Shown piece after piece: positions 25,461 to 31,920 of a stretch of 64,000 nt of DNA. Source of the DNA: Chromohalobacter nigrandesensis. GTDB lineage: Bacteria; Pseudomonadota; Gammaproteobacteria; Pseudomonadales; Halomonadaceae. The stretch spans positions 62,001-126,000 of the forward strand of contig NZ_JAKGAM010000004.1 of NCBI RefSeq assembly GCF_023061285.1, read 5' to 3'. Each line of letters starts with the position of its first letter. Positions within the stretch are counted from its first letter, which is position 1. Made by a program: the position numbers and the translations under genes. Under the pieces are notes generated by a model. That model was given only the letters and a program-made list of their open reading frames with translations. It was not told the DNA's origin and made no database searches.

Positions 25461-26639
25461 TTAGCCCAGCAGTGACAGGGCGTTCTGCGGCAACTGGTTG
25501 GCTTGCGCCAGCACGGAGGTACCGGCCTGCTGCAGAATCTGGTTCTGGGTCATGTTGGCGACTTCATCTGCGTAGTCGGCATCTTCGATGCGCGAACGTG
25601 CGGCGGAGAGGTTAGTCTCGGTGGTGCTCAGATTGGTAATTGCCGAGTCAAAGCGGTTCTGCAAGGCACCCAATTCGGAGCGCTGGCTATCGACTTGGCC
25701 GATGGCAGTATCCAATGCAGCCAGAGGAGAGGTTGTAGCACTTTCAGTATCGTCCTCGGTGATATTAACCGCTTCTGCATCCTCAGCCACGGTGTAGTTA
25801 ACTGTTGCTGAGTCCGTGCCGTCGGCAGTTTCTGCTGTTAGTTCAGCCGCGTAGTAATTGGTTTCTCCGCCATTCTCGTTTTTGACGTAGGCATTGCCAT
25901 CAGCATCGCTGACGATGGAGTTAGTACCGTTTTCAATGGGGGTGTCAGCAATAGCCGCACCAGTGGCTGCGCTGATAGCACCAGTGGAGATTTCGGTGTC
26001 ACCAGAAGTTGTTGAGGCAGTGCCAGTCACCGCAGTGAAGTCTTGACCATCAACAGTGATGGTGTCGCCTTCTGCGAGGCTTTCCACATTGCCAGTAGTG
26101 GCCAGTGTCGGGCCGTTGACGTTGAAATCACCCAGATCCAATGTTTCGGAGTTAACTTCGCTGAGGTTCATGCTGATGGTCTGGCCATCTTCGGAACCCA
26201 CCTGAATGGACAGCTCCTGATCGCTGGCGAGCACATCGACGCCGTTGAAGCTGGTTTCTTCGGAGATACGGTCGATCTCGTTCAGGCGCGCGCCGATTTC
26301 GTCCTGGATGGAATCCAGGTCTTCCTGGCTGTTGGTGCCGTTTTCCGCCTGAACGGTCAGCTCGCGAACGCGCTGCAGGTTGTCGTTGACCTGGTTGAGG
26401 GCGCCCTCAGTGGTCTGCGCGACGGAGATGCCGTCGTTGGCATTGCTCTGTGCCTGGCCGAGGCCACTGATCTGGCTGGTCATGCGGTTGGCGATGGCCT
26501 GGCCAGCGGCATCGTCGGCGGCGCTGTTGATCTTCAACCCTGAGGAAAGACGCTCCATGGAGGTTGAAAGGGCGTTTTCAGACTTGCTGAGGTTCTGCTG
26601 GCCGATCATGGCCGTGATGTTGGTATTGATCACTGACAT
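25461..26639 (-). CDS. fliC: flagellin
   Basis: Filament subunit, 392 residues. The conserved N-terminal D0/D1 (SVINTNITAMIGQQNLSKSE, MERLSSGLKINSAADDAAGQ) and C-terminal D1/D0 (RSRIEDADYADEVANMTQNQ, ILQQAGTSVLAQANQLPQNA) regions frame a variable domain (about 150-300). That domain is rich in Asp, Glu, Thr, Ser and Ala, with no Cys and few basic residues, as expected for a halophile, and offers many Ser/Thr for O-glycosylation. A perfect FliA promoter lies 92 bp upstream and a strong terminator follows. Confidence 0.97.
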   Translation of the reverse strand: MSVINTNITAMIGQQNLSKSENALSTSMERLSSGLKINSAADDAAGQAIANRMTSQISGLGQAQSNANDGISVAQTTEGALNQVNDNLQRVRELTVQAENGTNSQEDLDSIQDEIGARLNEIDRISEETSFNGVDVLASDQELSIQVGSEDGQTISMNLSEVNSETLDLGDFNVNGPTLATTGNVESLAEGDTITVDGQDFTAVTGTASTTSGDTEISTGAISAATGAAIADTPIENGTNSIVSDADGNAYVKNENGGETNYYAAELTAETADGTDSATVNYTVAEDAEAVNITEDDTESATTSPLAALDTAIGQVDSQRSELGALQNRFDSAITNLSTTETNLSAARSRIEDADYADEVANMTQNQILQQAGTSVLAQANQLPQNALSLLG

Positions 26640-26730
26640 GTGATGTTCCTTCCTCTCTGTTTGGGCTCCATTGGCCTGCCGTCGGTAATTCCGGGGCTTG
26701 CCACAACGGCGCCGTTGGCCGTTACCTCAT

Positions 26731-26757
26731 TTATCGGCGCAGGGGGAATTTGCTTTA
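26731..26757 (-). promoter_or_regulatory. FliA (sigma28) promoter of fliC
   Basis: On the minus strand TAAAG-N14-GCCGATAA matches the FliA consensus at every defined position, with the -10 ending 92 bp before the fliC ATG. This confirms class 3 control of flagellin. Confidence 0.92.
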
Positions 26758-26837
26758 GGGATAAATTGCAAATTTTTTCAGGCGCCGTGGCTGGGTATAC
26801 TTGGCGTCTGTTTATTCACCCGGAGCTTGCGCTCGCC

Positions 26838-27074
26838 ATGCCGTCGCTGGATATCATGCTCGACCTATCGCTGGAGACCTGCCGTTACCATTATGAAGGC
26901 GCGATGCAAACGGTGATCGCCACCAGCGTGGATGGGCGCCTGGTTAGCTTCCCCGCCACGGCGTTACGGCGCATCGTCACGCCGGATGGCGCACACGGTG
27001 TGTTCCGGCTGACGTTCAGCGAGGAGGGCAAGTTCATGTCGATGGTGGCGGTACAGCGTTGGGCGGGGGAATGA
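26838..27074 (+). CDS. DUF2835 family protein
   Basis: A small cytoplasmic protein of 78 residues matching DUF2835: LDLSLETCRYHYEGAMQTVI then ATSVDGRLVSFPATALRRIV and HGVFRLTFSEEGKFMSMVAV. The function of the family is unknown. The start is taken at ATG 26838, since the family is about 70 residues and the upstream part of the frame is the fliC promoter region; an ATG at 26853 is also possible. It is divergent from fliC. Confidence 0.8.
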   Translation: MPSLDIMLDLSLETCRYHYEGAMQTVIATSVDGRLVSFPATALRRIVTPDGAHGVFRLTFSEEGKFMSMVAVQRWAGE

Positions 27075-27134
27075 GGGGCGTTATACGTATATCAATATGG
27101 ATACTATAATATCTAAAAAATTATAATAAGTGCT

Positions 27135-27148
27135 ATAATAGCTATTAT
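27135..27148. promoter_or_regulatory. candidate HipB operator, 14-bp palindrome
   Basis: ATAATAGCTATTAT is a perfect palindrome 22 bp before hipB, overlapping a TATAAT (27134-27139). The surrounding 90 bp is very AT-rich against the neighbouring genes. Repression by the HipAB complex is plausible. Confidence 0.45.
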
Positions 27149-27170
27149 GGTATCTATAAAGGCGGTCTAA

Positions 27171-27449
27171 ATGCATCTGTCTCTTTTGACGGCGGCGGAC
27201 GTACAGCATGAGCTGGCGGGGGCGGTGCGTACGCGTCGCCGGGCACTCAAGTGGTCGCGCCAGCGCCTGGCGGAACGCAGCGGCGTGCCGGCGCCCACGA
27301 TCAAGAAGTTCGAGACGACAGGGCAGATCTCGCTGCGCCAGTTCCTGCTGCTGTGGCAGTGTGTCGACCGGCTGGAGCGTGTGGCCGCGCTCAGCGAGGC
27401 GCCGACACAAACGCCTCGCAGCATCGACGAGGTGCTCGCCGATGAGTGA
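27171..27449 (+). CDS. hipB: HipB-type XRE antitoxin
   Basis: A 92-residue helix-turn-helix protein: RTRRRALKWSRQRLAERSGV then PAPTIKKFETTGQISLRQFL is an XRE-family DNA-binding domain (about 15-70). It overlaps hipA by 8 bp (GATGAGTGA) and is the antitoxin/repressor of a hipBA pair. Its coding sequence recurs as two fragments, in swapped order, at 30150-30326 and 30760-30792. Confidence 0.88.
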   Translation: MHLSLLTAADVQHELAGAVRTRRRALKWSRQRLAERSGVPAPTIKKFETTGQISLRQFLLLWQCVDRLERVAALSEAPTQTPRSIDEVLADE

Positions 27450-28734
27450 CTTTCAGCCCGTGCGGAAACTGGAGGTTGTGCGTCGTTTGCAACAAGGCGG
27501 CGAATGCCGCGTCGGTGTGCTGGCACAGAGCACGAGAGGCGTGTTCTTTCAGTACGATGACGCCTACGTGGACGCCTATCACAGTCTGTCGCCATTTCTG
27601 TTGCCTTTCGATACCCAACTACATACGGCGCCGGCTTCTCCCCATCACGGTATCCATGGCCTTTTTGCGGACTCCTTGCCGGATGGATGGGGTTTGATGT
27701 TGATGGATCGTGTTTTTCGTCAACATGGCATCGCGCCTCGGCAGGTGACGGCGATGGATCGCCTGGCTTATGTCGGGGATCGCGGCATGGGAGCGTTGCG
27801 TTTTCGCCCGCTGTCACCTTACGTCCATCAGCCGAGCGATCACTGGATCGATATAGGCCGATTGGGCGAAGAAGCCAGGCAGTTGTTCGAAGGGCAAACC
27901 GAGACAGTGTTAGAGGCGCTCGCGGAAGCAGGAAGTTCCGGGGGGGCGCGGCCGAAAGCGCAGCTTTATTTCTCATCGGCATCGTCACAGCATGCCAGTA
28001 CCCACCCTCAGGAAGGGCTTTCGCCGTGGCTGGTGAAATTCACGTCGTCCTCACTATCGCTCGGCCATGAGGAGGGGCTTTGCGAAGCCGCTTATCTCTC
28101 GATGGCCGCGAGCGCGGGAATCGATGTGCCTGAATGGCGCTTGCTACCGCCACCCAATGGGGCGCCAGCGGTGGCCTGGTTGGCCACGAAGCGATTCGAT
28201 TGCGCCACGCAGAACGGGCAAGGGCGTTATCACTTGCATAGTGCCTGTGGGCTATTGGATGCAGACTTCCGATTACCTTCGCTGGACTACGAAGACCTGA
28301 TAAAAGCCGGTCAGATTTTGTGCGGCGCCCCGCGTGTTGGGCAAGCCTTGTTTCGTCGGGCGATATTCAACCTTCTGGCGGTCAATCAGGATGACCACAG
28401 CAAGAACTGGGCGTTTCTCATGGACGATGCCGGCCAATGGTCCTTGGCGCCATTTTATGATGTCACGTTCAGTCCGAGCCCTTTTGGGGAACATGCCACG
28501 GCGTATTGCGGTCATGGCAAGACACCGCCCCGCAATACGCTCCAGCGATTGGCCGATCAAGCGGGCTTCACTCGTTGGTCGCAGGCGCGCGAGGTGATCG
28601 AGGAGGTAGCCGATGGCGTCCAGCAGTGGGCGCGAGTGTCGGATGAGCTTGGTGTTTCTCGCGGCACACGTCAGCTTATTCAGAAGGCGCTGGATGATAC
28701 CCACGAGTACGCTAAGACGCTCTTGGCTGGTTGA
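27442..28734 (+). CDS. hipA: HipA family serine/threonine kinase toxin
   Basis: The 430-residue toxin kinase is of normal length. The start ATG 27442 overlaps the hipB stop, with GAGG upstream. Features: N-terminal subdomain with GLFADSLPDGWGLMLMDRVF, the Ser-rich Gly loop EAGSSGGARPKAQLYF, the catalytic NQDDHSKNWAFLMDD (Asp, His, Asn) and the DFG-like region YDVTFSP. HipA proteins phosphorylate aminoacyl-tRNA synthetases and induce persistence. The gene appears intact. Confidence 0.92.
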   Translation: MSDFQPVRKLEVVRRLQQGGECRVGVLAQSTRGVFFQYDDAYVDAYHSLSPFLLPFDTQLHTAPASPHHGIHGLFADSLPDGWGLMLMDRVFRQHGIAPRQVTAMDRLAYVGDRGMGALRFRPLSPYVHQPSDHWIDIGRLGEEARQLFEGQTETVLEALAEAGSSGGARPKAQLYFSSASSQHASTHPQEGLSPWLVKFTSSSLSLGHEEGLCEAAYLSMAASAGIDVPEWRLLPPPNGAPAVAWLATKRFDCATQNGQGRYHLHSACGLLDADFRLPSLDYEDLIKAGQILCGAPRVGQALFRRAIFNLLAVNQDDHSKNWAFLMDDAGQWSLAPFYDVTFSPSPFGEHATAYCGHGKTPPRNTLQRLADQAGFTRWSQAREVIEEVADGVQQWARVSDELGVSRGTRQLIQKALDDTHEYAKTLLAG

Positions 28735-28767
28735 CCCGAGACCGTAGAGCCGGCCACCTTCGCCCAG

Positions 28768-29048
28768 CTAACTATCTTGAAATTCCTGGGCGATGTAGCC
28801 GAGTTGCTTCATTATCTCGGTGTCGCGCGCCAGCGCATGAGCATCGGGTTGGAGTAGAGCCACGATCAAAATAGGTATGGTTCGTTGAAGATCGAGTCAC
28901 GTCCGAACGTTTCTGGCAAGTCGGCGGTTTCAGACGAAACGTAAGCGTAGAAGCTGTTCAGAATATCCTGCCGAAGGGAAGGATACCTCTCCGACAAGTC
29001 ACTCAATGCCTGATCAAAGAGGGGGTGCGTGTCGATCTGAACGGACAT
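28768..29048 (-). pseudogene. yafO: YafO-family toxin remnant, internally deleted and frameshifted
   Basis: The first frame (ATG 29048 to stop 28866) encodes 60 residues with ADLPETFGRDSIFNEPY, matching the LPDIFGRD segment of E. coli YafO. Then, shifted by one base, the DNA encodes LIVALLQPDAHALARDTEIM and KQLGYIAQEFQDS to TAG at 28768, matching the YafO C-terminus (LIAILKPEPHKLARDNNQMH). The roughly 55 residues normally between these two blocks are missing. So the gene carries an internal deletion plus a frameshift and is probably dead. A 179-residue ORF lies directly upstream in antitoxin position. Confidence 0.7.
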
Positions 29049-29062
29049 GTGCATGCCGTGTT

Positions 29063-29602
29063 CTATCCGCACTTTTCTCGGAGAAGCCGGGTGTTGACGC
29101 GTGCAAGCTCTCGCAGACCTTCCGGGTCTGCCGTGGAAGGAACACTGGACTGTGCCCCTGGCGTCTTTTGCCGAATCAGGTTTACTACGAGGCTGGCATT
29201 GGAGCGAGCTTTTGCTGTCGCGCGGCGCAATGGCATCATAATGTCGCGAATAACCTGGTGCTCGGCCATGCCCCTGTCCATCTCGGCCTCGCTTTCGCGC
29301 ATCTCGTCGAGCATTCTTTGAAAGGGCGCCGCACTTGGGGGCTTACCAGGGACTTCGGTCTCTAGAATCCGGTAGGTGGCCCACAGCAATTCAGCTAGCT
29401 CGAGAGAGTCTTTGCGTGTTTCCTCGCATACAGCGCGTAACTTGGCTACTGCTGATTGAGTATCGGCAGTAGCCGGTTGGTGAGAAAGCGCATCGGTTGC
29501 GCGCAGGGCGTTGCCCACTCCCATCGCTGTGGCGTAGGCCGATGCCATCACCTCGAAGTCGGGCTGCTTGGGTGGTGTGTGTTGCTGAAAATCCATCATC
29601 AT
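29063..29602 (-). CDS. unknown protein in antitoxin position upstream of yafO remnant
   Basis: An unrecognised 179-residue, largely helical and charged protein starting MMMDFQQHTPPKQPDFEVMA, with no membrane segment. A good ribosome site (GGAGG, 8 nt) precedes three consecutive ATG codons. Its stop lies 14 nt before the yafO remnant, the layout of an antitoxin-toxin operon. It is unlike the Phd-family YafN antitoxin of E. coli. It may be an alternative antitoxin or simply a neighbour. Confidence 0.6.
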   Translation of the reverse strand: MMMDFQQHTPPKQPDFEVMASAYATAMGVGNALRATDALSHQPATADTQSAVAKLRAVCEETRKDSLELAELLWATYRILETEVPGKPPSAAPFQRMLDEMRESEAEMDRGMAEHQVIRDIMMPLRRATAKARSNASLVVNLIRQKTPGAQSSVPSTADPEGLRELARVNTRLLREKCG

Positions 29603-29841
29603 GTGTGGATCCTCCGGGAGGAAGCCTCATTCTATGTGGCGCCATTTAATCGGACACCGAGTCGTTATTCTAGTTCTGTCATGACACAACGTCTATGGGG
29701 CACAGGGCTCTCGAATGCTGAGGGATTCGGGGTTAAGCGGTAGAGCGGCCTGTGAGCCCGGGGGCGTCATGATGCGCAGCCCCCAGAAAAAGACGATAAT
29801 GCCGGATACTAACGGCTGTAACTGAATATGAGGTTTATGCC

Positions 29842-30129
29842 ATGTCGATGAAAAACCCTCCGCATCCGGGGAGGATGTTGCGGCGTCGCATCGTTCCTGC
29901 CCTGAATATGAGCGTGACCGAGCTAGCGGAAAAGTTGGGCATGTCTCGCAACTCGGTGTCTCGCGTGTTGAATGAGCATGCTGCCATTTCTCCCGATTTC
30001 GCCGTTCGCCTTGAGTCTGGCGGCCTCGGTGAGGCAGCGCATTGGCTGCGCATGCAGGCGGCTCACGATCTCGCCGAGGCGAAAGCCAAAGAAAAGAACC
30101 ACATTGAGAGCTTCGCTCAGACTGCGTAA
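29842..30129 (+). CDS. higA: HigA family antitoxin without an adjacent higB
   Basis: A 95-residue XRE-family antitoxin: NPPHPGRMLRRRIVPALNMS then VTELAEKLGMSRNSVSRVLN and EHAAISPDFAVRLES is the classic HigA sequence. GAGG lies 8 nt before the ATG. HigB is normally encoded immediately upstream, but the 240 bp before higA carry no RelE-like frame, so this is an orphan. The stop codon is the first part of a 22-bp repeat shared with the end of the DUF2442 gene. Confidence 0.88.
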   Translation: MSMKNPPHPGRMLRRRIVPALNMSVTELAEKLGMSRNSVSRVLNEHAAISPDFAVRLESGGLGEAAHWLRMQAAHDLAEAKAKEKNHIESFAQTA

Positions 30130-30144
30130 GTCTCTGCGCAGGCC
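30123..30144 (+). repeat. 22-bp repeat R1 at the higA stop
   Basis: It begins TGCGTAAGTCTCTGC, includes the last bases and TAA of higA, and ends CAGGCC. It matches 30733-30754 at 21 of 22 positions. In both copies the TAA is the stop codon of the gene to the left, and the sequence to the right is a piece of hipB. Confidence 0.8.
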
Positions 30145-30149
30145 TAGCA

Positions 30150-30326
30150 GAGCGCAGCGGCGTGCCGGCGCCCACGATCAAGAAGTTCGAGACGACAGGG
30201 CAGATCTCGCTGCGCCAGTTCCTGCTGCTGTGGCAATGTGTCGACCGGCTGGAGCGTGTGGCCGCGCTCAGCGAGACGCCGACACAAACGCCCCGCAGCA
30301 TCGACGAGGTGCTCGCCGATGAGTGA
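30150..30326 (+). pseudogene. hipB duplicate, 3' part
   Basis: This matches 27273-27449 of hipB with 4 mismatches in 177 bp, including the final GATGAGTGA. It lacks the first third of the gene. The missing upstream piece is found 430 bp further on at 30760-30792. The copied end supplies the ribosome site and ATG for the next ORF. Confidence 0.88.
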
Positions 30327-30483
30327 TGTCGAGCGTGAGAAGGTCGCAAAGTTCTGGCTGGATCCCGTTGAGCTACAATCGAGCAAACGCCTGCGTGCCC
30401 ATGAGATTAATCAGCTTTGCAAGATAGTCGAACGGCATCAGGTCCAGTTTTTGGAGGCATGGTATGCGTACTTTGAATCTTGA
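30319..30483 (+). CDS. truncated DUF4160 protein started from captured hipB sequence
   Basis: A 54-residue ORF with KVAKFWLDPVELQSSKRLRA then HEINQLCKIVERHQVQFLEA WY, the C-terminal half of DUF4160, a family usually paired with DUF2442 in candidate toxin-antitoxin modules. The N-terminal half is gone. The ATG and the GAGGTG ribosome site come from the hipB duplicate, at exactly the position where hipA starts after the real hipB. It overlaps the DUF2442 gene by 20 bp. It is probably non-functional, though translatable. Confidence 0.65.
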   Translation: MSDVEREKVAKFWLDPVELQSSKRLRAHEINQLCKIVERHQVQFLEAWYAYFES

Positions 30484-30739
30484 ATCCGATCCGTTGGCTG
30501 TTGAAGTTAGCTTCACGGCTGACACGTTTCGTGTCGCGCTGGACGATGGCCGAGAGCTGTCGATTCCGCTGGCGTGGTTTCCTCGTCTTCTGCATGCCAC
30601 CTCGGAGCAGCGTGAACAGTGGGAGCTGATTGGGCGTGGCGAAGGTCTGCACTGGGAAGCGCTGGACGAGGATATTTCCGTTGCCGGTCTGCTGGCCGGT
30701 CGTGGCGATCAGACTCGCGGCCGTAAGGACGTTGCGTAA
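30464..30739 (+). CDS. DUF2442 family protein (partner of DUF4160)
   Basis: A 91-residue protein with the DUF2442 pattern: VEVSFTADTFRVALDDGREL then SIPLAWFPRLLHATSEQREQ, and GRGEGLHWEALDEDISVAGL with LLAG. GGAG lies 8 nt before the ATG. It overlaps the truncated DUF4160 frame, as in intact pairs. The stop codon lies within the second copy of the 22-bp repeat. Confidence 0.85.
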   Translation: MRTLNLESDPLAVEVSFTADTFRVALDDGRELSIPLAWFPRLLHATSEQREQWELIGRGEGLHWEALDEDISVAGLLAGRGDQTRGRKDVA

Positions 30740-30754
30740 GTCTCTGCACAGGCC
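30733..30754 (+). repeat. 22-bp repeat R2 at the DUF2442 stop
   Basis: The second copy of the repeat found at 30123-30144, with one mismatch. It contains the GCG TAA end of the DUF2442 gene and is followed by a hipB fragment. Confidence 0.8.
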
Positions 30755-30759
30755 CGAAG

Positions 30760-30792
30760 CGGGCACTCAAGTGGTCGCGCGAGCGCCTCGCG
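30760..30792 (+). pseudogene. hipB duplicate, upstream fragment
   Basis: This matches hipB 27240-27272 with 2 mismatches in 33 bp. Its right end is the exact base before the left end of the other fragment (27273), so the two pieces together rebuild hipB 27240-27449, but in swapped order. Confidence 0.75.
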
Positions 30793-30903
30793 AAGTGTTG
30801 TTGTCAGGTGGTGGGGTGTCGGTAGCCACGAATGACGCCATTGGCATCCGGTTACTCCTTGATGCATCCTTGACCGAACGGACAGCATGAGGTGAAAGAC
30901 GCG

Positions 30904-31920
30904 ATGACGACGAGCGAGACGGCGATGACGGCTTGGCTGCGAGCGTTGCCCAAGGCGGAGCTGCACCTGCATATCGAGGGCACGCTGGAGCCGGAGCTGA
31001 TGTTCGCCCTGGCCGAGCGCAATGGTGTGACGTTACCGCACGACTCGGTAGAGGCGGTGCGCGCGGCATACGATTTCGAGGATCTGCCGTCGTTCCTCGG
31101 TTTGTATTACCAGGGTATGAGCGTGCTGCACACGCAGGACGATTTCTACGATCTGGCGATGGCGTATTTCGCCCGTGCCAAGGAAGATGGCGTGGCGCAT
31201 GTCGAGCTGTCGTTCGATCCGCAGGCGCATTTGGTGCGTGGCGTGCCGCTCGAGGCGCCGTTCGAGGGGCTGCTGGCCGCGTGTCGTGAGGCCGAGTCGC
31301 GCTACGCTATTTCCTCGGCGTTGATCATGAGCTTTCTGCGCGATCGCGATTCTGCCGAGGCGCTGGAGGTGTTCGAACAGGCGACGCCGTGGCACGCGAT
31401 GATCGATGCGGTGGGGCTGGATAGCGCTGAGCGTGACAATCCGCCGGGGCGTTTTGCCGAGGTGTTCGCGCGAGCGCGTGAGAAGGGTATTCCTGGTGTG
31501 GCGCATGCCGGAGAAGAAGGCCCCGCCGCTTATATCCGCGAAGCCTGGGAGGCGCTTGAGGTGTGCCGCATCGATCACGGCGTGCGCTGCCTGGAAGACC
31601 CCGACCTGGTCGCGCGGTTGCGCGATGCCCGCATACCGCTGACGGTGTGCCCGCTGTCCAACGTCAAGCTCAAGGTGACCGACACGCTGGCCGAGCATCC
31701 GTTGCCCGCCCTGCGCGAAGCGGGGCTCAACGTTACCCTCAATTCGGACGACCCCGCCTATTTCGGCGGCGGCATGCTGGATAACTACGCCGCCTGCCAT
31801 ACCGCCTTCGACTGGACCCGCGACGACTTCATCGATATGACTCGCAACGCCCTGCAGGCCGCCTTCATGGCTGAAGAAAGGCGTGAGGCGTTGTTGGAAA
31901 AGCTGCGAGGGGTTGCTTGA
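30904..31920 (+). CDS. adenine deaminase (adenosine deaminase superfamily)
   Basis: A cytoplasmic zinc enzyme of purine salvage. The 338-residue product (ATG 30904; GAGG about 10 nt upstream, GTG 30892 less likely) has the HxH zinc site in KAELHLHIEGTLEPELMFAL, then VAHAGEEGP, RIDHGVR and LNSDDPAYFGGG. The EGTLEPELMFALAERN and FDPQAH segments match bacterial and fungal adenine aminohydrolases (for example the Pseudomonas enzyme) better than true adenosine deaminases, so adenine to hypoxanthine is the likely reaction. It sits alone between two toxin-antitoxin remnants. Confidence 0.85.
   Translation: MTTSETAMTAWLRALPKAELHLHIEGTLEPELMFALAERNGVTLPHDSVEAVRAAYDFEDLPSFLGLYYQGMSVLHTQDDFYDLAMAYFARAKEDGVAHVELSFDPQAHLVRGVPLEAPFEGLLAACREAESRYAISSALIMSFLRDRDSAEALEVFEQATPWHAMIDAVGLDSAERDNPPGRFAEVFARAREKGIPGVAHAGEEGPAAYIREAWEALEVCRIDHGVRCLEDPDLVARLRDARIPLTVCPLSNVKLKVTDTLAEHPLPALREAGLNVTLNSDDPAYFGGGMLDNYAACHTAFDWTRDDFIDMTRNALQAAFMAEERREALLEKLRGVA

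Follow-up and report, generated by a model that had tools for sequence, protein, structure and literature searches.

The DUF4160 and DUF2442 domains form a gene pair that has been reported, in the portion of the publication considered here, to work as a toxin-antitoxin system, dhiTA, in Dickeya dadantii and Escherichia coli (PMC8198452). The sections of a second publication used here propose that a Thermus plasmid pair, which had no visible effect in E. coli, acts alike; deletion of its second open reading frame (ORF) gave no transformants, and for this reason that ORF is regarded as the antitoxin (PMC12724237). The pair is also listed in a marine survey, within the excerpt used here (PMC12654330). 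The locus described in the current study lies in a window of 64,000 nucleotides from Chromohalobacter nigrandesensis, the whole stretch of DNA that was analyzed. Like dhiTA of D. dadantii 3937, as given in the same portion of that report (PMC8198452), the window contains this domain pair with the toxin gene first and the two genes overlapping, but its predicted toxin gene lacks approximately 30 N-terminal residues and uses the start codon of hipA. Domain pair and order are likewise those of the Thermus 'Persistence Enhancing Module' (DUF4160/DUF2442), which the cited sections describe as plasmid-borne and intact (PMC12724237), whereas the pair in the window is chromosomal and broken.

All features of the locus lie on the plus strand unless stated otherwise. 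As in the known hipBA system, the open hipA toxin gene (27442..28734, 430 aa) matches both HipA domains (Pfam HipA_C and Couple_hipA, above cut-off), and its start is overlapped by the hipB-like antitoxin gene that precedes it (27171..27449, 92 aa, HTH), the parent copy in what follows; unlike that system, hipB matches its models (HTH_31, HTH_3, and couple_hipB) only below the curated cut-offs. On the minus strand follow a truncated yafO toxin gene (28866..29072), a remnant with no Pfam match in which 155 nt are missing between 28871 and 28873 compared to G007 and G014, two relatives from the genus, and an adjoining open ORF of 179 aa (29063..29602), which is the same in these two relatives. 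The intact yafO homologue of G007 (152 aa) matches YafO_toxin. Pfam and NCBIfam searches with the 179-aa ORF gave no match, and judged by its position alone it is a possible antitoxin gene. The higA antitoxin gene (29842..30129; NCBIfam antidote_HigA, 87.2 bits, cut-off 47.7) has no higB partner; the genome contains six HigB-like_toxin matches, on contigs C1, C4, C17, and C23, with none on the contig that carries higA.

Between higA and add, an adenosine deaminase gene (30892..31920, Pfam A_deaminase) that forms the right flank, lies an insert of 610 bp composed of a copied 3' part of hipB (30150..30326), the remainder of the DUF4160 toxin gene (dhiT', 30319..30483), the complete DUF2442 antitoxin gene (dhiA, 30464..30739, 91 aa; Pfam DUF2442, 86.1 bits), and the second copy of a 22-nt direct repeat, R. 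In the hipB copy the first in-frame ATG, GTG, or TTG is an internal GTG at 30162, and dhiT' continues in frame after the hipA start, ATG AGT GA, with approximately 30 N-terminal residues gone. The Pfam matches of toxin and antitoxin are adjacent, toxin first, at 30319-30480 and 30464-30736. Because dhiT' covers only positions 24-64 of the 65 of the DUF4160 profile (it aligns to residues 32-80 of an intact relative of 80 aa), dhiTA is called here a broken module with a complete, putative antitoxin gene. DhiA, the sole complete product predicted, may act as an unpaired antitoxin gene behind higA. The block is closest at the nucleotide level to G144 (89%), and the dN/dS of dhiA against three relatives is approximately 0.05-0.07 (Nei-Gojobori, with two of the three dS values above 1), a ratio that mostly reflects time before the rearrangement. 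An Rfam search of 26.0-32.5 kb gave no match, and a promoter scan of 29600-30950 gave no site on the plus strand.

The initial annotation had described two fragments of hipB that occur in swapped order on the two sides of DUF4160'-DUF2442, and this arrangement is real. The 3' fragment (27273-27449) and its copy (30150-30326) differ at 4 of 177 columns when aligned within the window, and the 5' fragment (27240-27272) is identical to 30760-30792 at 31 of 33 positions; hipB aligned to 30755-30891 scored 29, compared to a maximum of 19 among 1000 dinucleotide shuffles. The two fragments had also been said to abut exactly at 27272/27273. Both are present, but the 3' copy aligns back to 27265, giving a longer repeat (27265-27449 and 30142-30326) with 6 mismatches in 185 columns (97% identity). 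The copies of R (R1, 30123..30144; R2, 30733..30754) are identical at 21 of 22 positions, and at up to 3 mismatches R has two sites in the window, compared to none in 100 shuffles. Of the interval that may have been duplicated, only the hipB 3' part and R are present twice. Positions 30778-30792 hold a predicted stem (CGCGAG-CGC-CTCGCG), classed as terminator-like, in which both differences between hipB and the 30760-30792 fragment fall on paired positions; its folding is not better than that of shuffled sequences.

The insert was searched for in 275 genomes of the family, this one included, with 29800-30900 as the query, and 79 of them matched somewhere. The genus is represented by ten genomes, again including this one, and the junction of the higA end with add is present in six of the other nine (G012, G007, G014, G006, G011, and G008; at the G011 junction the alignment to higA is limited to its final 36 nt). 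All six lack the insert, so that among the seven genomes with the junction the additional 610 bp occur in this one only. For the remaining three, the stretches compared show that in G010 only about 110 bp lie between the match to the DUF2835 gene and the match to add and that in G013 the match begins at add, while G009 has no match to 29800-30900. DhiA was found at E <= 0.001 in one of the ten genus genomes, this one, and in none of the nine relatives. This comparison shows the old site to be the end of higA, R, a short relic, and add without an insert. Unpermuted R-hipB-DUF4160'-DUF2442, which the initial annotation had proposed to look for in related genomes, was found in none of the nine genus relatives, and among plasmid and phage collections, 35 and 2 records matched, with none covering more than 16% of 26500-31900.

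The empty site also determines what R is. The repeat consists of the final codon and the stop of higA followed by 15 nt of intergenic DNA, and since the six genus relatives share the order higA end (R), short tract, add without an insert, the sequence comparison identifies R as the end of higA and not as a cassette repeat. A cassette of R and hipB, as had been suggested for this locus, is not supported by these observations, as the true hipB at 27171 has no R attached to it and R has its close copies only here: the entire genome (3.64 Mb) contains two, with one further site at 3 mismatches on another contig. R as a dispersed site, or one resembling attC or dif, was likewise rejected, R being the end of higA in relatives and not dispersed; R-like matches at G000 C3, G009 C4, and G010 C5 share one common, unrelated gene context that is not higA. 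An integron-type or other site-specific cassette finds no support either, as searches for PF00589 and PF00239 gave no nearby recombinase and R is not present in several places.

Integration of an excised circle, or of a mobile cassette using R or the hipB relic as its site, agrees with a gene order that is a circular permutation of R-hipB-dhiT'-dhiA and with the direct repeats R that flank the insert. However, R is the end of higA in relatives and has only two close copies in the genome, and of the five tyrosine recombinase (PF00589) matches in the genome none lies in the window, the nearest being about 92 kb from the insert (C34:185110). In addition, a genome search for serine recombinases (PF00239) found none, and there is no tRNA gene in the window. 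A circle is compatible with the sequence because unequal crossover and excision with reintegration leave the same product, but nothing specific supports one, and we consider this explanation quite improbable. A broader version, in which direct hipB repeats at both ends of the fliC-add hotspot drive repeated excision and re-insertion of circles, producing permuted arrays in which antitoxins are kept and toxins lost, is very improbable in our judgment. A DNA hairpin at the hipB breakpoint was rejected as a cause, with five folds giving z values of -0.54 to 0.77 compared to shuffles.

The hipB 5' fragment belongs to the old site. R2 is continuous with this site, and the tract containing the fragment (30760..30792) aligns in the six genus relatives. 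When the tract behind R was compared with hipB, the similarity was clear in G012 (score 27; best of 300 shuffles 16) and G007 (30; 15) and weaker in G011 (19; 14) and G008 (22; 19), while G014 (14; 14) and G006 (14; 15) gave no hipB signal. We therefore call the tract an old hipB fragment that has decayed to differing degrees across the relatives, and the alignment of the tract itself argues for one shared relic in all six. The 5' fragment at 30760 is a relic older than the hipB 3' copy and independent of it. Independent duplications with different breakpoints, which had been named as evidence against a permuted duplicate, are partly borne out, namely for this fragment.

The left end of the insert leads back to the same relic. 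Three of the six mismatches that separate the hipB copy from its parent lie within its first 11 columns (P = 0.003 if mismatches were placed uniformly, with the division chosen post hoc), and these first columns match the relic upstream of add in G007 better than they match hipB. The left junction (30143..30152) reads CCTAGCAGAG, as does the G007 relic, and does not fit hipB; G014, G006, and G011 have TTAGCAGAG further on. CTAGCAGAG was found solely at the left junction and in the G007 relic (nine genus stretches, both strands). The hipB genes of five relatives have CTGGCGGAA or CTTGCGGAA at this position. The codon frame of hipB is kept through the junction (LAERSGVPAPT). Because the first columns fit the G007 relic better than hipB, the junction would sit inside a zone where hipB and the relic recombined. 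Compared to the G007 relic, that of the window (CCTCGCGAAGTG) is the poorer fit to the left junction, which argues that the relic present today at 30760 is not the parent.

This resemblance to G007 raises the possibility that the insert was formed in another strain and entered through homologous recombination across higA and add. Beyond the junction decamer, at three sites past 27275 the copy has the bases of other species: A at 27359, as in G012; A at 27399, as in G007, G008, and G011; and C at 27416, as in G012, G007, G008, and G011. With n=3, these bases are only a hint of a foreign origin. Import would merely shift the origin to another strain, however, and the flanks match G012 at 95% on both sides of the insert; we regard it as unlikely. 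Since the last 177 columns hold 4 differences between copy and parent, compared to 9 between either of them and G012, the event would be younger than the split from G012, or the copy would derive from a close strain.

An earlier arrangement of the genes is suggested by G012, where a relic of dhiA (44 nt, same strand, one gap, 86%) lies 7 nt past the hipA stop codon; its score of 30 compares to a best of 20 among 1000 shuffles and suggests a former hipBA-dhiTA array. Behind hipB or hipA in four other genus stretches and in the window, scores of 11-15 amounted to nothing, and in other genomes neither hipA nor hipB was found beside dhiA in any of 80 loci, many of which are ended by contig ends. 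Unequal crossover followed by deletion within the resulting tandem duplication is a general mechanism, and we place a little more belief than doubt in a reading of the locus as a recombination scar of this kind, situated in a hotspot for toxin-antitoxin genes that is flanked by the flagellin gene and add, with duplication between hipB and its relic and then deletions. The ancestor would have had the order hipB-hipA-dhiT-dhiA ... higA-R-relic. In it, hipB and the hipB relic would have acted as direct repeats, and recombination between them would have duplicated the interval, a hipB...higA unit, producing higA-R-relic/hipB 3'-hipA-dhiT-dhiA ... higA-R-relic-add. Three later deletions at very short repeats would have followed: one of about 35 bp behind R1, between GCC(T) repeats, one that took out hipA together with the 5' end of dhiT, and one that reached from the end of dhiA through to the last codon of the second higA. 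The first unit would have lost dhiTA. The remaining order would read as a circular permutation. At the right-hand joint, dhiA ends in GTTGC-A/C/T-TGA in G144, G264, and Ectothiorhodospira mobilis (the end varies in other relatives), whereas in the window GTTGC passes straight into R, and R2 now provides the last codon and the stop.

Duplication between hipB and relic with later deletions accounts for the two copies of R, for the swapped order of the hipB parts, and for a left joint that keeps the reading frame; relatives have the empty site, and there are homologous repeats where the crossover would have occurred. With the general process it has in common direct repeats as substrate and a permuted remaining order, but the intermediate is not observed here or in any relative. 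It costs one duplication and at least three deletions, and against it no remnant of the second hipA or of the body of the second higA exists, the witnesses being R and the hipB 3' part alone. Fewer steps would be needed if, during repair, a fork that had copied higA-R had changed template at the hipB relic, moving to a hipB-dhiT'-dhiA array already without hipA, and had returned at the start of R; with a point of return upstream of the point of exit, R would be copied twice. Two switches suffice in such template switching, which also accounts for the absence of hipA and of a second higA, and the joints share approximately 3 bases (GCC on the left, TGC on the right). On the other hand, it requires a hipB-dhiT'-dhiA array that is unseen in the relatives searched, and a left joint that is relic-like with the hipB frame kept points to longer homology; we consider it possible but doubtful. 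The initial annotation had offered a circular intermediate or a tandem array of cassettes later deleted. Of these, a form of the array with deletion is favoured, both because the hipB 5' fragment and one R belong to the old site of the relatives and because the added block (the other R, hipB 3', dhiT', and dhiA) passes at its left end from relic-like sequence into hipB without a change of frame.

It is also important to consider that the assembly is a draft of 50 contigs, in which similar hipB sequences might have been joined erroneously. However, the genome contains only one match to the insert's DhiA, so another locus has not been pasted in, and both flanks match relatives; an assembly artefact is extremely improbable.

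The region from the DUF2835 gene to add (27074-30833) is a hotspot whose content depends on the species, including hipBA, yafO, a hicA-like ORF (G011), a cluster of three to four lipoprotein-like ORFs (G012, G008, and G006), or, in G010, next to nothing; we presume the names flagellin, hicA, and lipoprotein from the sequences and not from family searches. In the hotspot of this genome the toxin genes dhiT and yafO are truncated and higA lacks a higB on its contig, while dhiA and higA remain open and hipBA looks whole, which fits a decay in which the toxin gene goes first, with only weak support from a tally across the family. In this tally, the toxin carried a stop, was split, or aligned over a short length in 12 of 45 neighbouring DhiT-DhiA pairs, compared to one antitoxin with a stop; short or split alignments were scored as damage for toxins and not for antitoxins, and two of the 12 damaged toxins (G199 and G079) align only from residue 11-12 and may be whole. 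No DhiT was found within 500 nt of 14 of 59 strong DhiA rows, and 9 of 55 DhiT rows had no strong DhiA. DhiA rows below about 72 bits were left out, five of which adjoin DhiT rows (G135, G222, G237:C230, G258:C5, and G267), including two with an internal stop (G237:C230 and G258:C5). Restoring them gives 50 pairs, lowers the DhiT rows that lack DhiA from 9 to 4, and raises the antitoxins with a stop from 1 to 3. Compared like for like by a hand recount of internal stops only, 5 toxins and 3 antitoxins are affected in 50 pairs, and for this reason the tally alone does not show decay of toxins first. In four individual loci (L064, L065, L069, and L067) dhiA is open, while dhiT contains a stop in E. 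mobilis and a frameshift in Modicisalibacter luteus, differs at its 5' end in Halomonas ventosae, and is reduced to a 3' tail in Halomonas sp. LH_M4. In the Halomonas loci L067, L068, and L069, dhiA is followed at distances of 60 bp to approximately 750 bp by a homologue of higA (about 55% identity) in the opposite orientation.

The event at this locus is ordinary in kind, and the empty site documents it well. Together with six relatives in which the site is empty, it illustrates how recombination between a gene and an old fragment of itself can give rise to a permuted gene order that is puzzling at first sight.
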